A stretch of DNA of 49,217 nucleotides, from contig NZ_CXSU01000012.1 of assembly GCF_001403795.1 (NCBI RefSeq), forward strand, positions 384,831-434,047, given 5' to 3'. Source of the stretch: Jannaschia donghaensis. GTDB taxonomy: Bacteria > Pseudomonadota > Alphaproteobacteria > Rhodobacterales > Rhodobacteraceae. This document shows, in pieces, positions 6,357-22,382 of the stretch (positions are counted from its first letter, which is position 1; every line of letters starts with the position of its first letter). Made by a program: the position numbers and the translations under genes. Under the pieces are notes generated by a model. The model was not told where the DNA came from. It saw nothing but the letters and a program-made list of their open reading frames with translations, and searched no databases.

Positions 6357-7255
6357 AATCCGCCACCGGGGCCAAGACCCGCGCCGTCGACCCGGCACCG
6401 ACCCGGTGGCAGTACCGAATGCAGCGTCTGTGGCTGACGCCGCTGTTCCGCGCGATGATCCGAACCGGCATACCCAGCTTCGGCTTCGTGATCCTGTTCA
6501 CTTGGTACATCAACGACGAGGCGCGGATCACCGCCATATCCGACTGGTATCAGGGCACGGTCAGCGCGGTGCAGGACCGGCCGGAATTCATGGTCGCGTT
6601 GCTGCGCATCGAAGGGGCTAGCGCCGAGTTGCAGGACGATATTCAGGAGGCGCTGCCCATCGACCTGCCGCTGTCGCAATTCAAGCTGGACATGGACGGG
6701 CTGCGCAAGCAGCTGATCGACCTGGACCCGGTTCTGGACGCCGAAGTGCGCGTCAAGGCCGGTGGCGTCCTGTTGCTCAAGGTGACCGAACGCACCCCGG
6801 CCGTCGCATGGAAGACCGACGGCGGGATCGAAGTTCTGGACGCGACGGGCCACCGGGTCGCCACACTTCACAATCTGGAAACCGCAGGCGCGCTGCCTTT
6901 GATCGCGGGCGAGGGGGCCGACACCGTCGTTCCCGAAGCGCTGACCCTGATCGCCGCCGCGCGGCCCATCGTCGACCGTCTGGTGGGACTAACCCGCGTG
7001 GGCAATCGACGCTGGGACGTCGTCCTGACCGACGATCAGGTCATCGCCTTGCCCGAAGCGTCGCCTGTCGCCGCCCTGGACCGGGCGCTTGCCATGCATG
7101 CCGCCAAGGACGTGCTGTCGCGCGACGTGCGCGTCGTGGATCTGCGCATTTCCGACCGGCCCGTTCTGCGGCTCACGCCCGAAGCGCGGTCGGAGCTGAA
7201 GGGTCTTCAGGATCTGGAACGTCTATCACTCGATCACTCGGAAGGGGACCAATGA
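6344..7255 (+). CDS. ftsQ: Cell division protein FtsQ
   Basis: A 303-residue bitopic division protein. A basic cytoplasmic N-tail of about 38 residues is followed by one transmembrane segment (about 40-58, [12 protein letters not shown]) and then a periplasmic POTRA-type region around residues 80-150 ([14 protein letters not shown] onward). FtsQ links FtsL/FtsB to the divisome. The ATG at 6344, after GGAGG within the ddl end, overlaps ddl by 13 bases. An upstream ATG at 6317 would lengthen the tail by 9 residues but lacks a good ribosome binding site. Ends in an ATGA overlap with ftsA. Confidence 0.95.
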
Positions 7256-15743: not shown

Positions 15744-17021
15744 ATGACGACGCTCCTGCTCGGCCAGACGCTGGCTTTCACCGCCGACCCGTTCCAGACC
15801 GATCCGGCTGGTGCAGTCCGGCATCAAACGCACGGCGCGGTCGCCGTCGACGACGGACGCATCACGGACGTCGGCCCGGCCGACGATCTGCGCCGGGCGC
15901 ATCCGCAGGCCCAAGTGATCGACCACGGTGCAAACCTGATCCTGCCGGGTTTCGTGGACGCGCACGTGCATTATCCGCAGACGGCGATCATTGCGTCCTG
16001 GGGTAAGCGGCTGATCGACTGGCTCAACACCTATACCTTCCCCGAGGAGGCGCGGTTCTCCGACCCGGCCCACGCCGCCGCGACGGCGGAGACTTATCTC
16101 GACCTGGCGCTTGCCCATGGCACGACATCGATGTGCAGTTTCGCCACCATCCATCCCGCCAGCGTCGATGCCATATTCACGGCCGGGACCGCGCGGGGCA
16201 TGGCCGTCTGGGCGGGCAAGACCTGCATGGACCGCAATGCGCCCGGTGATCTGCGCGATACCGCGCAATCGGCCTATGACGACAGCAAGGCCCTGCTGGA
16301 CAGGTGGCACGGCGCAGGGCGCGCCCGATATGTCGTCACGCCGCGGTTCGCGCCCACGTCTTCGCCGGACCAGCTTTCGGCCCTGGGCGCGCTCTGGTCG
16401 GAGAACCCCGACTGCCTGATGCAGACCCATCTGAGCGAGCAGACCGACGAGATCGCCTGGGTGCGGGATCTATTTCCCGAGGCCCGCGATTACCTCGACG
16501 TCTACGAGACCCACGGGTTGATGGGCGAACGTGGCCTATATGGTCATTCGATCCATCTGACGGAGCGGGAAAGGGCGCGCTTGCGGGACGTGAACGCCGC
16601 CGTCGTGCACTGCCCAACATCCAACACCTTCATCGGGTCCGGCCTGTTCGACATGGACCTTGCCAGAATGCTTCGCACCGGACTTGCCACCGATACCGGG
16701 GGCGGCAGCAGCTTTTCGATGCTGCGGACAATGGCCGCTGCCTACGAAGTGGCGCAGCTTCGGGGGCAGGCGCTGCATCCCGCGCAACTCCTCTACCTTG
16801 CGACCGAAGGATCTGCCCGCGCGCTGCATGCGACCGACATCGGGCGTTTGGCATCTGGTGCGATGGCAGACATCGTCGTCCTCGACCTCGCCTCGACCCC
16901 GGCCATCGCGCAACGTCACGCGCGCGCCGACACCCTGTGGGAAGCGGTGTTTCCGACGATCATGATGGGGGACGATCGCGCCGTGGCCCAGACCTACGTG
17001 GCGGGTCGCGCGATGTTATGA
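15744..17021 (+). CDS. guaD: Guanine deaminase
   Basis: An amidohydrolase of 425 residues that converts guanine to xanthine in purine salvage or catabolism. The metal-binding PGFVDAHVHYPQ (about 70-81) is the guanine deaminase form of the HxH motif. Later ligands are in MQTHLSEQ, YGHSIHLT and LATDTGGGSSFSM, and VHCPTSN is a family hallmark. It ends 32 bases from the convergent small secreted-protein gene, with a perfect hairpin between. Purine metabolism is shared with purB nearby, but they are on opposite strands. Confidence 0.95.
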   Translation: MTTLLLGQTLAFTADPFQTDPAGAVRHQTHGAVAVDDGRITDVGPADDLRRAHPQAQVIDHGANLILPGFVDAHVHYPQTAIIASWGKRLIDWLNTYTFPEEARFSDPAHAAATAETYLDLALAHGTTSMCSFATIHPASVDAIFTAGTARGMAVWAGKTCMDRNAPGDLRDTAQSAYDDSKALLDRWHGAGRARYVVTPRFAPTSSPDQLSALGALWSENPDCLMQTHLSEQTDEIAWVRDLFPEARDYLDVYETHGLMGERGLYGHSIHLTERERARLRDVNAAVVHCPTSNTFIGSGLFDMDLARMLRTGLATDTGGGSSFSMLRTMAAAYEVAQLRGQALHPAQLLYLATEGSARALHATDIGRLASGAMADIVVLDLASTPAIAQRHARADTLWEAVFPTIMMGDDRAVAQTYVAGRAML

Positions 17022-17022
17022 C

Positions 17023-17045
17023 GGGTGGGCACGTCATGCCCACCC
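17023..17045. terminator. Perfect hairpin between convergent guaD and the 58-residue secreted protein
   Basis: GGGTGGGCA (17023-17031) and TGCCCACCC (17037-17045) form a 9-bp perfect stem with a 5-base loop, two bases after the guaD stop. The following bases, TGTTC, are only weakly U-rich. It could serve as a bidirectional terminator for both converging genes. Confidence 0.6.
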
Positions 17046-17053
17046 TGTTCGTA

Positions 17054-17230
17054 TCAGCTGGTGCTTGCCACGATGCAGGAATTGCTTTCCGCGTCGAATG
17101 TGGTGCCCGGCGCGCAGGACATCGTCACACGCTCCTTGCCGAAGCCGCATTCGTAGGCTTGCGCCAATCCGGGAGCGGCCACCATCACGGCGGCAATCAG
17201 CAGCTTGTTGATCTTTCCGTTGATCTTCAT
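17054..17230 (-). CDS. Small secreted protein, 58 residues, three cysteines
   Basis: The start at 17230 follows the strong site GACAGGAGA with 7 bases between AGGAG and ATG. Residues 1-22 form a signal peptide ending LAQA, leaving a mature chain of about 36 residues with Cys in ECGFG, MSCAPG and NSCIV. The spacing C-x(n)-C-APGTTFDAESNSC resembles the tail of small chitin-binding (peritrophin-like) modules, but that is only similarity of pattern. Similar short proteins beside purB are, as I recall, sometimes mislabelled adenylosuccinate lyase. Its N-terminus, MKINGKINK, contains two Ile-Asn pairs, like the repeat peptide encoded just upstream. Function unknown. Confidence 0.75.
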   Translation of the reverse strand: MKINGKINKLLIAAVMVAAPGLAQAYECGFGKERVTMSCAPGTTFDAESNSCIVASTS

Positions 17231-17267
17231 CGCGTCTCTCCTGTCAATCAAGTGACGTAAGGTTAGC

Positions 17268-17284
17268 CCGATCCGTCGGATCGG
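17268..17284. repeat. Perfect 7-bp hairpin between the two small minus-strand genes
   Basis: CCGATCC and GGATCGG pair around a three-base loop. It lies between the stop of the Ile-Asn repeat gene and the ribosome binding site of the 58-residue gene. No T-run follows on either strand, so it is more likely an attenuator or processing structure than a full terminator (inference). Confidence 0.45.
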
Positions 17285-17323
17285 CAAAACGCCAAACGGT
17301 CGCAGGTGATCCACGCGCCGGGA

Positions 17324-17401
17324 TCAGTTGATCCGGTTGATGCCGTTGATACGATTGATCTGGTTGATGCGGTTGATCTTGTTGATACGGTTGATGGTCA
17401 T
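17324..17401 (-). CDS. 25-residue peptide made of eight Ile-Asn-X repeats
   Basis: The ORF has an ATG at 17399-17401 and a TGA at 17324-17326. It is preceded by GACAGGAGA (17409-17417), with 8 bases between AGGAG and the ATG. The product is Met-Thr followed by eight Ile-Asn pairs, the seven spacers being R, K, R, Q, R, G, R. Arg recurs exactly every six residues (5, 11, 17, 23) from three different codons (CGT, CGC, CGT, CGG), while Ile is always ATC and Asn is AAC except once. Net charge is about +5, with no signal peptide or Cys. I do not recognise the family. It could be a translated peptide or a DNA/RNA repeat that happens to be open; the ribosome binding site and varied Arg codons favour a peptide. 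Confidence 0.65.
   Translation of the reverse strand: MTINRINKINRINQINRINGINRIN
17327..17398. repeat. Eight tandem 9-bp units, GTTGATnnn on the plus strand
   Basis: GTTGAT recurs every nine bases eight times (once as ATTGAT) with a variable third triplet. It is the DNA form of the Ile-Asn-X repeat. GTTGATCTT also occurs in the first codons of the neighbouring 58-codon gene, once as the antisense of AAG ATC AAC. Confidence 0.9.
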
Positions 17402-17433
17402 TTTGACATCTCCTGTCGGGTTGCAGTGATGTG

Positions 17434-17461
17434 ACGCTAGCCGCGCGAGCAAATTTCGCAA
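17434..17461 (-). promoter_or_regulatory. Candidate promoter for the Ile-Asn repeat gene
   Basis: On the minus strand TTGCGA (17461-17456) and TAGCGT (17439-17434) are 16 bases apart, and would place transcription start about 26 bases before the repeat gene. The area further upstream is AT-rich. This is a weak match of spacing and hexamers only. Confidence 0.25.
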
Positions 17462-17552
17462 AACGAGATATGCTTAAAATGCGAACGATCGCGCCGCTTC
17501 AGCCCCTCCCGATCGGCAGACAGCTCTCGATCATCATAGCCCGACTGTCGGG

Positions 17553-18860
17553 TCAGACGTCGCCGAACACGCGGGCAAAGATCGTATCGACATGCTTGGT
17601 GTGATACCCCATGTCGAACTTTTCCTCGATGCCGGCGACGCCGAGGGCCGCGACCACGTCCTTGTCGGCAAGCAGTTCCTCGCGGAAATCCGACCGCTCC
17701 TCCCAAACCTTCAGGGCGTTGCGCTGCACCATCGCATAGGCATCCTCGCGGCTGACACCGGCTTGCGTCAGCGCCAGAAGGACGCGCTGCGACATGACCA
17801 GGCCCGGAAATTTGTTCATATTATCGAGCATGTTGTCGGGGAAGATAAGCATCTTGTCGACGACGCCCGTCAACCGCGCCAAGGCGAAGTCCAGCGCGAT
17901 ACAGGTATCCGGCCCGATGTTGCGCTCCACCGACGAATGGCTGATGTCACGCTCGTGCCAAAGGGTCACGTTCTCCATCGCCGGCACCACCGCCATCCGC
18001 ACCAAACGCGCCAGGCCGGTCAGGTTTTCGGTCAGGACCGGGTTCTTCTTGTGCGGCATGGCCGAGGAGCCCTTTTGCCCCATCGCGAAAAATTCGGCCC
18101 CCTCCAGCACTTCGGTACGCTGCATGTGCCGAATTTCCGTGGCCACGTTTTCGATCGAACTGCCCACCACGCCCAGTGCGGCGAAGAAGGCGGCGTGCCG
18201 GTCGCGCGGAATGACCTGGGTGGAGATCGGCTCGGGGGACAGGCCCAGTTTTTCGCAGACATGCTCCTCCACCGCCGGATCGACATTGGCGAAGGTGCCG
18301 ACAGCCCCTGAAATCGCGCCCGTTGCGATCTCCGCTCTGGCGGTCTTGAGACGTCGCAGGTTGCGATCCATTTCTGCATAGAAGCGCGCGAAGGTCAGCC
18401 CCATCGTCGTCGGCTCCGCGTGGATGCCGTGACTGCGCCCGACGCGCAGCGTGTCCTTATGCTCCAGCGCGCGCCGCTTGAGGGCCGCCAGCAGGGCTTC
18501 GACATCGGCGATCAGGATATCCGCAGACCGGACAAGCTGGACGTTGAAACAAGTGTCCAGAACGTCCGACGACGTCATGCCCTGATGCACGAACCGCGCT
18601 TCGTCTGCCCCCACATGCTCGGCCAGGTGGGTCAGAAAGGCGATGACGTCGTGCTTGGTGACGGCCTCGATCTCGTCGATGCGGTCGACGTCGAATTCGA
18701 CGTTTTTGGCTTTCCACACGGCCTCGGCGTTTTCGCGTGGGATGACGCCTAGGTCGGCCATCGCATCGCAGGCATGGGCCTCGATCTCGTACCAGATGCG
18801 GAACTTGGTCTGCGGGGACCAGATCGAAACCATCTCGGGGCGGGAATAGCGGGGGATCAT
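17553..18860 (-). CDS. purB: Adenylosuccinate lyase
   Basis: A 435-residue fumarase/aspartase superfamily lyase acting twice in purine synthesis (SAICAR to AICAR, adenylosuccinate to AMP). N-terminus MIPRYSRPEMVSIWS is the standard one. TSSDVLDTC near residue 90 and the signature GSSAMPHKKNP near 265 carry the catalytic Ser and substrate-binding residues. AGAGGA lies about 8 bases before the ATG at 18860, which rules out the in-frame ATG nine bases earlier because that would touch the site. It is divergent from the DUF6314 gene and followed by 151 bases and then the repeat-peptide gene. Confidence 0.97.
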   Translation of the reverse strand: MIPRYSRPEMVSIWSPQTKFRIWYEIEAHACDAMADLGVIPRENAEAVWKAKNVEFDVDRIDEIEAVTKHDVIAFLTHLAEHVGADEARFVHQGMTSSDVLDTCFNVQLVRSADILIADVEALLAALKRRALEHKDTLRVGRSHGIHAEPTTMGLTFARFYAEMDRNLRRLKTARAEIATGAISGAVGTFANVDPAVEEHVCEKLGLSPEPISTQVIPRDRHAAFFAALGVVGSSIENVATEIRHMQRTEVLEGAEFFAMGQKGSSAMPHKKNPVLTENLTGLARLVRMAVVPAMENVTLWHERDISHSSVERNIGPDTCIALDFALARLTGVVDKMLIFPDNMLDNMNKFPGLVMSQRVLLALTQAGVSREDAYAMVQRNALKVWEERSDFREELLADKDVVAALGVAGIEEKFDMGYHTKHVDTIFARVFGDV

Positions 18861-18932
18861 GCGAGGCATCCTCTGGCAGCGACGTCGCCAGCGTCATAGG
18901 CTGCGCGGCATCGACCCGCAAGGAACGCCGCC

Positions 18933-19340: not shown

Positions 19341-19565
19341 TCAGCCGGTCAGGCAATCGTTGCCGGTGTCGCGCCAGATCGGCACGTTCAGCGACATGTC
19401 GCAGCGGGCCATGAACTCCCGCCCGTTGATCGACAGACAGGTCTGCTGCCCCATCTCAACCCGGGCTCCGGTGCTGTCGGTGCAGTAGCACTCGACGGTC
19501 TTCGACTGCGCCAGACCCATCGCGGGAAGAGCAGCGAGACACAGGAAAACAGCGATTTTCTTCAT
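19341..19565 (-). CDS. Small cysteine-rich secreted protein, 74 residues
   Basis: AGGAGGGAACG precedes the ATG at 19565. Residues 1-19 are a signal peptide ending GLAQ. The mature part, about 55 residues, has five Cys: ECYC, QTC, ARC and NDC. The patterns [14 protein letters not shown] and [11 protein letters not shown] look like a conserved Rhodobacterales periplasmic family that I recognise only as hypothetical. An odd number of mature Cys leaves one free for metal, redox or dimer formation. It is divergent from prfA. Confidence 0.75.
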
Positions 19566-20698: not shown

Positions 20699-21501
20699 AG
20701 ACGCGCGATGCAATGGACGACGCCGGCCGTCGGTTAAGTTTGGCGGGCGTTCCTGACCCCCTTCGCGATGTCTCGGCCCTTCTGGACGCGGCGGGGGCCG
20801 GGTCTCTGGACGAGCTGCCCCCTGATGTTGCCGCCCGGTTCGAGCGGTTGGTTCAGCGGCGGGTGCGTCGCGAACCGGTGTCTCATCTGACTGGTCGGCG
20901 CGCGTTCTGGATGCACGATTTCATCGTTACGCCCGACGTGCTCGACCCGCGCCCCGACACCGAAACACTGGTCGAGGCGGCGCTGTCCGCCCCATTTGAG
21001 ACGGTCCTCGATCTGGGCACCGGATCGGGCTGCATTTTGCTGTCGCTCCTCTATGAGCGGCCACGGTCGCGGGGAACGGGCACCGACATCTCGGACGACG
21101 CCCTCGCCATTGCCCGGCGAAATTCGGACGTCGTGGGGGTCGCCGACCGCGTGATCTTTCTGCAATCGGATTGGCTGGCCGACGTGACCGGCATGTTCGA
21201 TCTCATCGTCTCCAACCCCCCCTATATATCGACCGCCGAGATGGCCGACCTGTCGCCCGAAGTCCTGCATGAGCCGCGTCTCGCGCTGACCCCAGGCGGG
21301 GATGGGCTGGATGCCTATCGCACAATTGCCCGTACCGCCCCGCCACATCTGATGCCCGGTGGCCGCCTGATGGTGGAGATCGGCGCGGCCCAGGCCGAGG
21401 CCGTTAGCGGTCTTCTTGCGGATGTCGGCCTGCGAAATCTGCGGGTCATTCCCGACATCAACGGCAAAAGTCGTGTCGTTTCCGGCGAAAAGCCGCATTG
21501 A
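20695..21501 (+). CDS. prmC: PrmC, glutamine methyltransferase of release factors
   Basis: A SAM-dependent enzyme of 268 residues that methylates the Gln of the GGQ motif in PrfA and PrfB. The SAM-binding motif [13 protein letters not shown] is near residue 102 and the catalytic NPPY near 178. A GTG at 20695 overlaps the prfA stop (GTGA); an ATG at 20713 is the alternative and would drop six residues. Pairing with prfA is the standard operon and joins enzyme and substrate. Confidence 0.95.
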
Positions 21502-21671
21502 ACCGACGAATCCTCTTGTCAGCGGGGTCAGCCCGACCCATAACGTCCTCAGCATCTACGGTTGACATGTCGAGGACGTGGCCCGGATGCGAAGCCCGAC
21601 CAATCCGGACCCCCTCGACCCGCGACACACGTGGGCAGGGTCCACGGCAAAGATCAGCGGAAACCCCACGC

Positions 21672-22382
21672 ATGAGAAGCAGCAAGTCCCGTTCGCGGAA
21701 CAAGAACCGTAATCGCAGCAATCAGGGTGGCGGCAATATCGTCAACCGCGTCTTCGACAGCTCCGGCCCCGAAGGCAAGGTGCGTGGCACGCCCGCCCAG
21801 ATCATCGAAAAATACAATCAGCTTGCCCGCGACGCACAGTTGTCCGGTGACCGTGTGGCCGTAGAGAATTTCCAGCAGCACTCGGAGCATTACACCCGGA
21901 TGCTGGCCGCCGCGCAGAAGGAACTCGACGCGCGCCAGCAGCAGAACAACCAGCAGCAGAACAACCAACAGGGTGGCAACCCGCAGGGCGGCAACCAGCA
22001 GGGTGGCAATCAGCAGGGCAACGCCAACCAGGGCGGCGGTCAGCAAGGGGGCCCCCAGAACGGCGCTCAGCAAAATGACCAGAACGCTCCGCAGGGTGGC
22101 AACAGGCGTCGCAACTCCGGCGGTGGCGAAAATCGTCGACCTGACCCGTCCGAGCAGCCGCAGCCGCGCGACGAAGCTCCGCAAGTCGATGTGATCGACG
22201 CGCCGGCGGCTGACAGCGGTCCCGTGGACACGCCCGAAACCACGGAGCCGAAGGCCGAAAAACCCAAGCGCACCCGGACGCGCAAGAAGGCCCCGGCCAA
22301 GCCGGAAGCCGAGAAGACGGCCGGAGAGAGCGGCGAATTGCCCGCCTTCATCGACCCGGCGGAACCCGCCGCCGAGGGCTGA
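21672..22382 (+). CDS. DUF4167 protein with Gln/Asn/Gly-rich repeats
   Basis: A 236-residue protein. Residues 1-20 are basic (RSSKSRSRNKNRNRS). The DUF4167 core (about 25-85) contains VRGTPAQIIEKYNQLARDA and VAVENFQQHSEHYTRML, the family hallmark. Residues about 85-145 are a low-complexity tract of Q, N and G with QGGN units. The C-terminal third is acidic, then has a basic KRTRTRKKAPAKP block. The family is widespread in Alphaproteobacteria; I know no firm function, and RNA or ribosome binding is a guess from the basic and low-complexity parts. It ends at a strong terminator. The 170-base gap before it shows no clear promoter. Confidence 0.85.
   Translation: MRSSKSRSRNKNRNRSNQGGGNIVNRVFDSSGPEGKVRGTPAQIIEKYNQLARDAQLSGDRVAVENFQQHSEHYTRMLAAAQKELDARQQQNNQQQNNQQGGNPQGGNQQGGNQQGNANQGGGQQGGPQNGAQQNDQNAPQGGNRRRNSGGGENRRPDPSEQPQPRDEAPQVDVIDAPAADSGPVDTPETTEPKAEKPKRTRTRKKAPAKPEAEKTAGESGELPAFIDPAEPAAEG

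Follow-up and report, generated by a model that had tools for sequence, protein, structure and literature searches.

Short open reading frames (ORFs) that precede another gene are known from alphaproteobacteria, and two of them offer the closest described systems to the locus reported here. In the parts of the sources drawn on, CutF of Rhodobacter capsulatus is an exported copper sensor that works together with an mRNA stem-loop, which shields the ribosome-binding site of the next gene (PMC9973294); peTrpL of Sinorhizobium meliloti is an attenuator leader peptide that acts on a resistance operon (PMC7298713). A further point of comparison is provided by small proteins from random libraries, which, in the portion of the work cited, proved useful by binding an RNA leader (PMC10065794). 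Like CutF and peTrpL, as far as these sources describe them, the ORF that we report is short, lies before another gene, and belongs to an alphaproteobacterium.

The ORF is located on the minus strand at 17324–17401 of the window, by which we mean the whole 49,217-nt stretch of DNA that was analysed. Its 25 codons translate to MTINRINKINRINQINRINGINRIN, followed by a stop: Met-Thr and then eight Ile-Asn pairs with the spacers R, K, R, Q, R, G, and R, which place Arg at residues 5, 11, 17, and 23 (codons CGT, CGC, CGT, and CGG). We refer to it as the IN ORF and to its product as the IN peptide. The Shine–Dalgarno (SD) sequence, GACAGGAGA (17409–17417, minus strand), contains an AGGAG that ends 8 nt 5′ of the ATG. 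Downstream of Met-Thr, the ORF is coextensive with a tandem array of eight ATCAA[C/T] units (17327–17395, minus strand) that has a 9-bp period and an 18-bp superperiod. Tandem Repeats Finder placed the array at 17327–17395 (or 17328–17396) and scored it 75 at the 9-bp period and 89 at the 18- and 27-bp periods; the sole higher score in the window, 95, belonged to a Gln/Gly-rich coding repeat at 21962–22019. A previous reading of this DNA (the sequence-only reading) had described the same series of residues, an Arg every six positions written in three different codons, an 18-base superperiod over a 9-base period, and a well-spaced SD site, all of which agree with the translation and the repeat analysis.

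By eye, the IN peptide is basic, with four Arg and one Lys (two Arg and one Lys in the orthologous form described below), and it lacks a hydrophobic stretch or core, Cys, and a signal peptide. As the earlier reading had anticipated in assigning it to no known family, the peptide had no match in Pfam (E ≤ 0.1), NCBIfam, or the PDB sequences at the cut-offs applied, a weak test for 25 low-complexity residues. No such repeat was found in a literature search on the exact repeat strings and related topics, the coverage of which left out most subscription journals; the exact strings returned engineering papers only, unrelated by title, and the topics returned general small-protein, leader-peptide, and fungal or plant work.

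The gene order on the minus strand is purB, the IN ORF, 93 nt of spacer, and a small gene that we denote SCP, past which a guanine deaminase gene lies on the opposite strand. The upstream neighbour, purB, encodes adenylosuccinate lyase (17553–18869, minus strand; TIGR00928, 493.7 bits); a start three codons inside the listed ORF (MIPRYS) was used for it in the 5′-end alignments. SCP (17054–17230, minus strand) encodes a small secreted Cys protein of 58 aa, MKINGKINKLLIAAVMVAAPGLAQAYECGFGKERVTMSCAPGTTFDAESNSCIVASTS, which starts with MKINGKINK, has a signal peptide by eye, and carries a CBM14-like C-terminus. It scored E 6.3e-4 and 20.3 bits against PF01607, under the cut-off of 22.1, and had no NCBIfam match; its counterpart in a second genome of the genus, G019, scored 23.5 bits, above that cut-off. 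Two other features of the window were noted in passing. A small protein at 19341–19565 (minus strand) has a signal-peptide-like start and several Cys, with no Pfam or NCBIfam match at E ≤ 0.1, and a longer protein at 21498–22382 (plus strand) contains Gln/Asn/Gly-rich coding repeats of 15 and 30 bp at 21935–22045.

The distribution of the IN ORF was narrow. We found purB in all 20 genomes of the genus set, which includes the window genome (G000), and an ORF with at least three IN pairs within 1,100 bp behind purB in two of them, G000 and G019. The G019 orthologue, MTINKINRINTINRIN behind GGGAGACGTCGCA, likewise occupies the gap between purB and SCP and keeps the SD, ATG, frame, and stop, with five Ile-Asn pairs to the eight of G000. 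A whole-peptide search of 147 relatives (E ≤ 1) gave matches in 14 genomes, and among the 12 loci inspected, G019 alone was alike. One genome of the same class, G106, outscored G019 in this search (E 1.6e-4 vs. 0.007) and was rejected as an orthologue, its match being an A+T-rich INK array without an ATG, GTG, or TTG start. When the 19-residue prefix was searched (E ≤ 0.2), three of 394 family genomes and five of 292 order genomes matched (the genus, family, order, and relatives sets overlap); the four matches other than G000 and G019 (L171 and L223–L225) sit inside longer repeat-rich frames, and no third IN ORF was present among the matches in either set. These counts led us to reject the IN ORF as a general companion of purB in the order. 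The IN ORF is tied to the downstream secreted-protein gene, not to purB, and is clade-restricted, a view that is better supported but narrower than the earlier one.

How far the two carriers have diverged was assessed from eight syntenic genes (3034 aligned codons; purB and guanine deaminase apart, their labels are our presumption). Identity between G000 and G019 was 51.6% at 1532 fourfold sites and 85.6% at residues. An unrooted tree of the eight concatenated genes from six genomes grouped G016, not G019, with G000 (support 100), and a purB tree of the 20 genomes recovered the same grouping more weakly (94/93). G016, which the tree places nearest to G000, carries no IN ORF in its purB–SCP slot. 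Either the ORF was therefore present before the split and was lost in G016, or it was transferred between G000 and G019. A check for an orthologue with start and ribosome-binding site had been set beforehand as the test that could refute the earlier reading; G019 retains both, and the closest relative lacks the locus.

Within the region, DNA identity between the two carriers was 44/51 in the IN ORF, 74/142 upstream of it, 65/93 in the IN–SCP spacer, and 132/177 in SCP. All 13 Ile-Asn pairs of the two genomes are intact, and variation falls in spacer codons and wobble positions. In G000, one of 48 ATCAAC positions (a silent AAT) and 10 of 24 spacer positions depart from the modal base (Fisher 3e-5), and in G019, none of 30 and seven of 15 (Fisher 1.4e-4), where the spacer differences were perhaps partly inherited from a longer (18-bp) first unit and would then not all be independent. 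Ile is encoded by ATC in 13 of 13 cases and Asn by AAC in 12 of 13, which fits the usage of a few window genes (0.83 and 0.80). At the neutral fourfold rate, the survival of the five aligned Ile-Asn pairs has p ∼ 1e-7, slippage ignored; slippage could re-homogenise the units, which the diverse spacers make less likely. In both species the array is bounded by ATG-ACN at its start and by the stop codon at its end. Thus what is expected of a selected small-protein gene, an orthologue with start, frame, and SD and with changes biased towards silent and spacer positions, is seen here, in one orthologue only. The suggestion of the sequence-only reading that selection acts on the peptide gains from an orthologue that, at near-saturated synonymous divergence, keeps every Ile and Asn and shares the array bounds. 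To judge from these comparisons of sequence, the peptide is likely the unit of selection, and we infer that it is translated.

The adjoining SCP is far more widespread, being present in 173 of 394 family genomes (E ≤ 0.01) and 18 of 20 genus genomes (E ≤ 0.1). The proteins are roughly 50–60 residues long and often encoded downstream of purB; at 24 of 29 family loci, SCP was preceded by the end of purB at a distance of 61 to 517 nt. We assembled 86 SCP loci (the family search gave 30, G000 among them; the genus gave another 16, and fetched regions 40), of which 84 were parsed by a script that took the last plausible ATG as the SCP start, too short a call in some (e.g., G010). Just two of the 84 parsed proteins have IN in the signal-peptide start, those of G000 (MKINGKINK) and G019 (MKINRKINT), and the same two loci are the ones with an upstream ORF containing at least two IN. 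The SCP of G016 starts with MKVNKL.

The 5′ ends of the IN ORF and SCP resemble each other. Aligned from −100 to +30, they score 24 in G000 and 42 in G019. Among 93 other SD-led starts (frames of at least 90 codons from the window and five relatives), none attained these values in either comparison, and one of 300 and none of 300 mononucleotide shuffles did, respectively; the shared ATCAAC unit makes part of this score. The 5′ end of the G000 IN ORF gave z 3.9 with its own SCP start and z 4.0 with the SCP start of G004, and a 9-mer identical to GACAGGAGA also precedes SCP in G000. The DNA before the SD did not align beyond chance: 40 of 300 shuffles and 20 of 93 other gene starts were as good in G000, and 109 of 300 and 44 of 93 in G019. 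The resemblance therefore rests on the SD, the start, and the ATCAAC units.

A predicted SCP promoter, TTTTG-N14-CGGGCTAACC, lies at 17261–17289 (minus strand). We described it with a two-block motif, ntgTTTTG-N14-CGTGCTACCc, seeded manually and then refined against the upstream regions of 81 other SCP genes; it scored 12.9 in G000 and 14.6 in G019, with 0/500 shuffles doing as well in each. The motif is unusually uniform across the 81 family loci. A promoter-like element with the internal spacing of the SCP promoter, TTTTG-N14-GCGGCTAGCG, is found 5′ of the IN ORF (17435–17463, minus strand), with a score of 5.0 that was matched by nine of 500 mononucleotide shuffles and falls short of the lower quartile of the training promoters (8.4, n = 81). 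The distance from motif to ATG in G000 is 33 nt for the IN ORF and 30 nt for SCP; the IN ORF motif of G019 has the same gap and lies 35 nt from the ATG (SCP 48), and was not significant (141/500 shuffles). A pattern built from both sites occurs in the window at these two places and nowhere else, a count that is circular. A generic sigma-70 scan of 16900–17650 gave no promoter, missing the IN element and the SCP promoter alike.

The gene content of the purB–SCP slot seems to change often. A second SCP-like gene, with the pattern EHPxxVIxDDPxxTCTxGTxWDxEIxGCMPVV, occupies the slot in two distantly related members of the genus, 85 nt upstream of SCP in G016 (L201) and 91 nt upstream in G006 (L212). 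Used as a query, this gene had some match in 13 of 20 genus genomes (E ≤ 0.1); high scores were restricted to G016 itself and G006 (58% identity), and several of the weak matches were SCP. A tandem SCP-like copy can thus sit in the slot, and by its sequence the IN ORF resembles the 5′ end of one whose start has expanded. Other contents were also observed. Beside its second SCP-like gene, the G016 slot has an extra frame, MNTFLERLF..., with hydrophobic stretches; an opposite-strand gene resembling a small membrane protein (...SALWLILGAxIAxL...) fills the gap in G004 and G002 (L036 and L037), and G003 is alike by eye, the longest frame called there by the script being another.

We favour, at about even chances, a lineage-restricted, selected micropeptide gene that came from the SCP start by duplication and expansion of a 9-bp unit; an Ile-Asn peptide gene that is real but young is probable. 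The duplication that we infer would have copied the SCP 5′ end (SD, start codon, cationic signal-peptide start, and perhaps promoter) upstream, after which the copy would have lost the hydrophobic core and the secreted domain, and a 9-bp ATCAACxxx unit would have expanded within it. The product would be a cytoplasmic basic peptide in which selection keeps the Ile-Asn units and the alternate Arg, with copy number (eight or five) and the other spacers left to drift. Against this reading, the two carriers are the only ones and are not neighbours in the tree, so that loss or transfer must be assumed, and the promoter element of the IN ORF matches the motif modestly in G000 and without significance in G019. 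All molecular action is conjectural. Expressed beside SCP, a multivalent cationic peptide might act in trans, with RNA or membrane as the repetitive anionic partner that it binds. Variable copy number suits avidity for such a partner over a precise stall or fold, and a trans-acting basic peptide is therefore our first guess at a mechanism, a tentative and rather doubtful one. An extended strand would put Arg 5, 11, 17, and 23 on one face, and a three-residue helix would put Ile, Asn, and the spacer on three; the sequence-only reading had likewise proposed separate faces in an extended or 3-10-like structure, with possible RNA, membrane, or partner binding. The combined proposal, in which the SCP n-region was duplicated, freed of its hydrophobic core, and amplified into a tripeptide-repeat peptide with Arg at every sixth residue, and in which this peptide would target RNA, membrane, or the export of the parent protein in trans, is improbable.

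Because only two genomes carry the IN ORF, it may also be a neutral or nearly neutral 9-bp slippage array near a gene start, open by chance and with a functionless peptide, which we consider unlikely, if a serious contender. Its very narrow distribution, absence from G016, and varying copy number would all fit, as would the commonness of such arrays: a scan of genome contigs for ATCAAC 9-bp arrays gave at least 117 stretches, and the arrays among the 80 loci listed included ones at contig ends, in intergenic DNA, and in long frames, of which many were open on the other strand. Among these listed loci, just one of 81 array frames was an SD-led ORF of 60 codons or fewer; in this sample, the array is not rare as DNA and is rare as a bounded, SD-led ORF. 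Also against a neutral array stand an SD, ATG, and stop retained at 52% fourfold identity, bounds that are exactly start and stop in both species, and variation confined to spacers and wobble positions, the spacers not having been homogenised. The one short SD-led frame of the sample, in Streptomyces sp. SID14478 (L057, ∼6728–6868, plus strand), is an ORF of 46 residues, MQDVIEIDEDIVEFDSVDVEN(INN)n, that ends at a stop and is followed by a G+C-rich inverted repeat; with its acidic head and Ile-Asn-Asn repeat, it looks, on sequence, like a peptide-precursor layout.

Two further explanations place the function in cis. The IN ORF could be a leader whose translation on a longer transcript tunes SCP expression: in both genomes it is short, has an SD, and precedes SCP in the same orientation (93 nt away in G000 and 135 nt in G019), and no terminator-like site was seen on its strand in G000. 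The spacer (17231–17323, minus strand, from IN stop to SCP start) is moderately structured as RNA, with z −1.47 for 17245–17323 and z −1.85 for the G019 counterpart, in which a strong G+C hairpin follows the IN stop; the fold of 17200–17430 is ordinary (z −0.24). A strong, family-wide predicted SCP promoter lies inside the spacer, so that SCP mRNA need not contain the IN ORF; in addition, the number of repeats is not constant, and inspection by eye showed no Pro-rich stall motif, which leaves a leader quite improbable. If instead the DNA were the functional element, the GTTGAT repeats would form a tandem series of sites for a protein immediately before the SCP promoter, the IN stop being 34 nt (G000) or 58 nt (G019) from the SCP TTTTG box. 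The wobble positions of ATCAAC are indeed kept too (25/26), but codon usage alone explains this; moreover, a 9-bp spacing is out of helical phase, the promoter distance differs between the two genomes, and in both an SD-led ATG-ACN and a TGA frame the array, making this reading very improbable. Three more candidates were rejected. FNR-type palindromes were discarded since the array has, by eye, direct TTGAT half-sites only, compared with what we take to be the FNR consensus. A structured RNA or riboswitch was discarded since Rfam had no match at the ORF or spacer (its single match, below the gathering score, was inside purB) and the ORF folds no better than shuffles (z 1.14 and −0.76). A RiPP precursor was discarded since a leader region is absent and none of the scanned neighbours (purB, guanine deaminase, SCP, and one small protein) is a modification gene.

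If the favoured origin from the SCP start is correct, the locus presents a natural tiny repeat-peptide gene that arose beside its likely parent and was kept by selection. With the likely donor gene, an eight-repeat form, a five-repeat form, and a close relative without the gene all in hand, it would make a compact test case for micropeptide origin, of narrow reach until function is shown. Compared with the systems introduced above, in the parts of those sources considered, the IN ORF differs from CutF and peTrpL: it has no signal peptide and no evident stem-loop over the SCP ribosome-binding site, and the downstream gene has its own predicted promoter. The RNA-binding proteins from random libraries, as described in the portion cited, are hydrophobic and laboratory-selected (PMC10065794), whereas the IN peptide is basic, repetitive, and natural. 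A further likeness is next door: SCP shares the SD, start, and IN units of the IN ORF and, in G000, a similar promoter layout. The IN peptide itself falls outside the SCP/CBM14-like proteins, having no hydrophobic core, no Cys, and no Pfam match at E ≤ 0.1, whereas SCP combines a signal peptide (by eye) with a Cys-containing CBM14-like domain.
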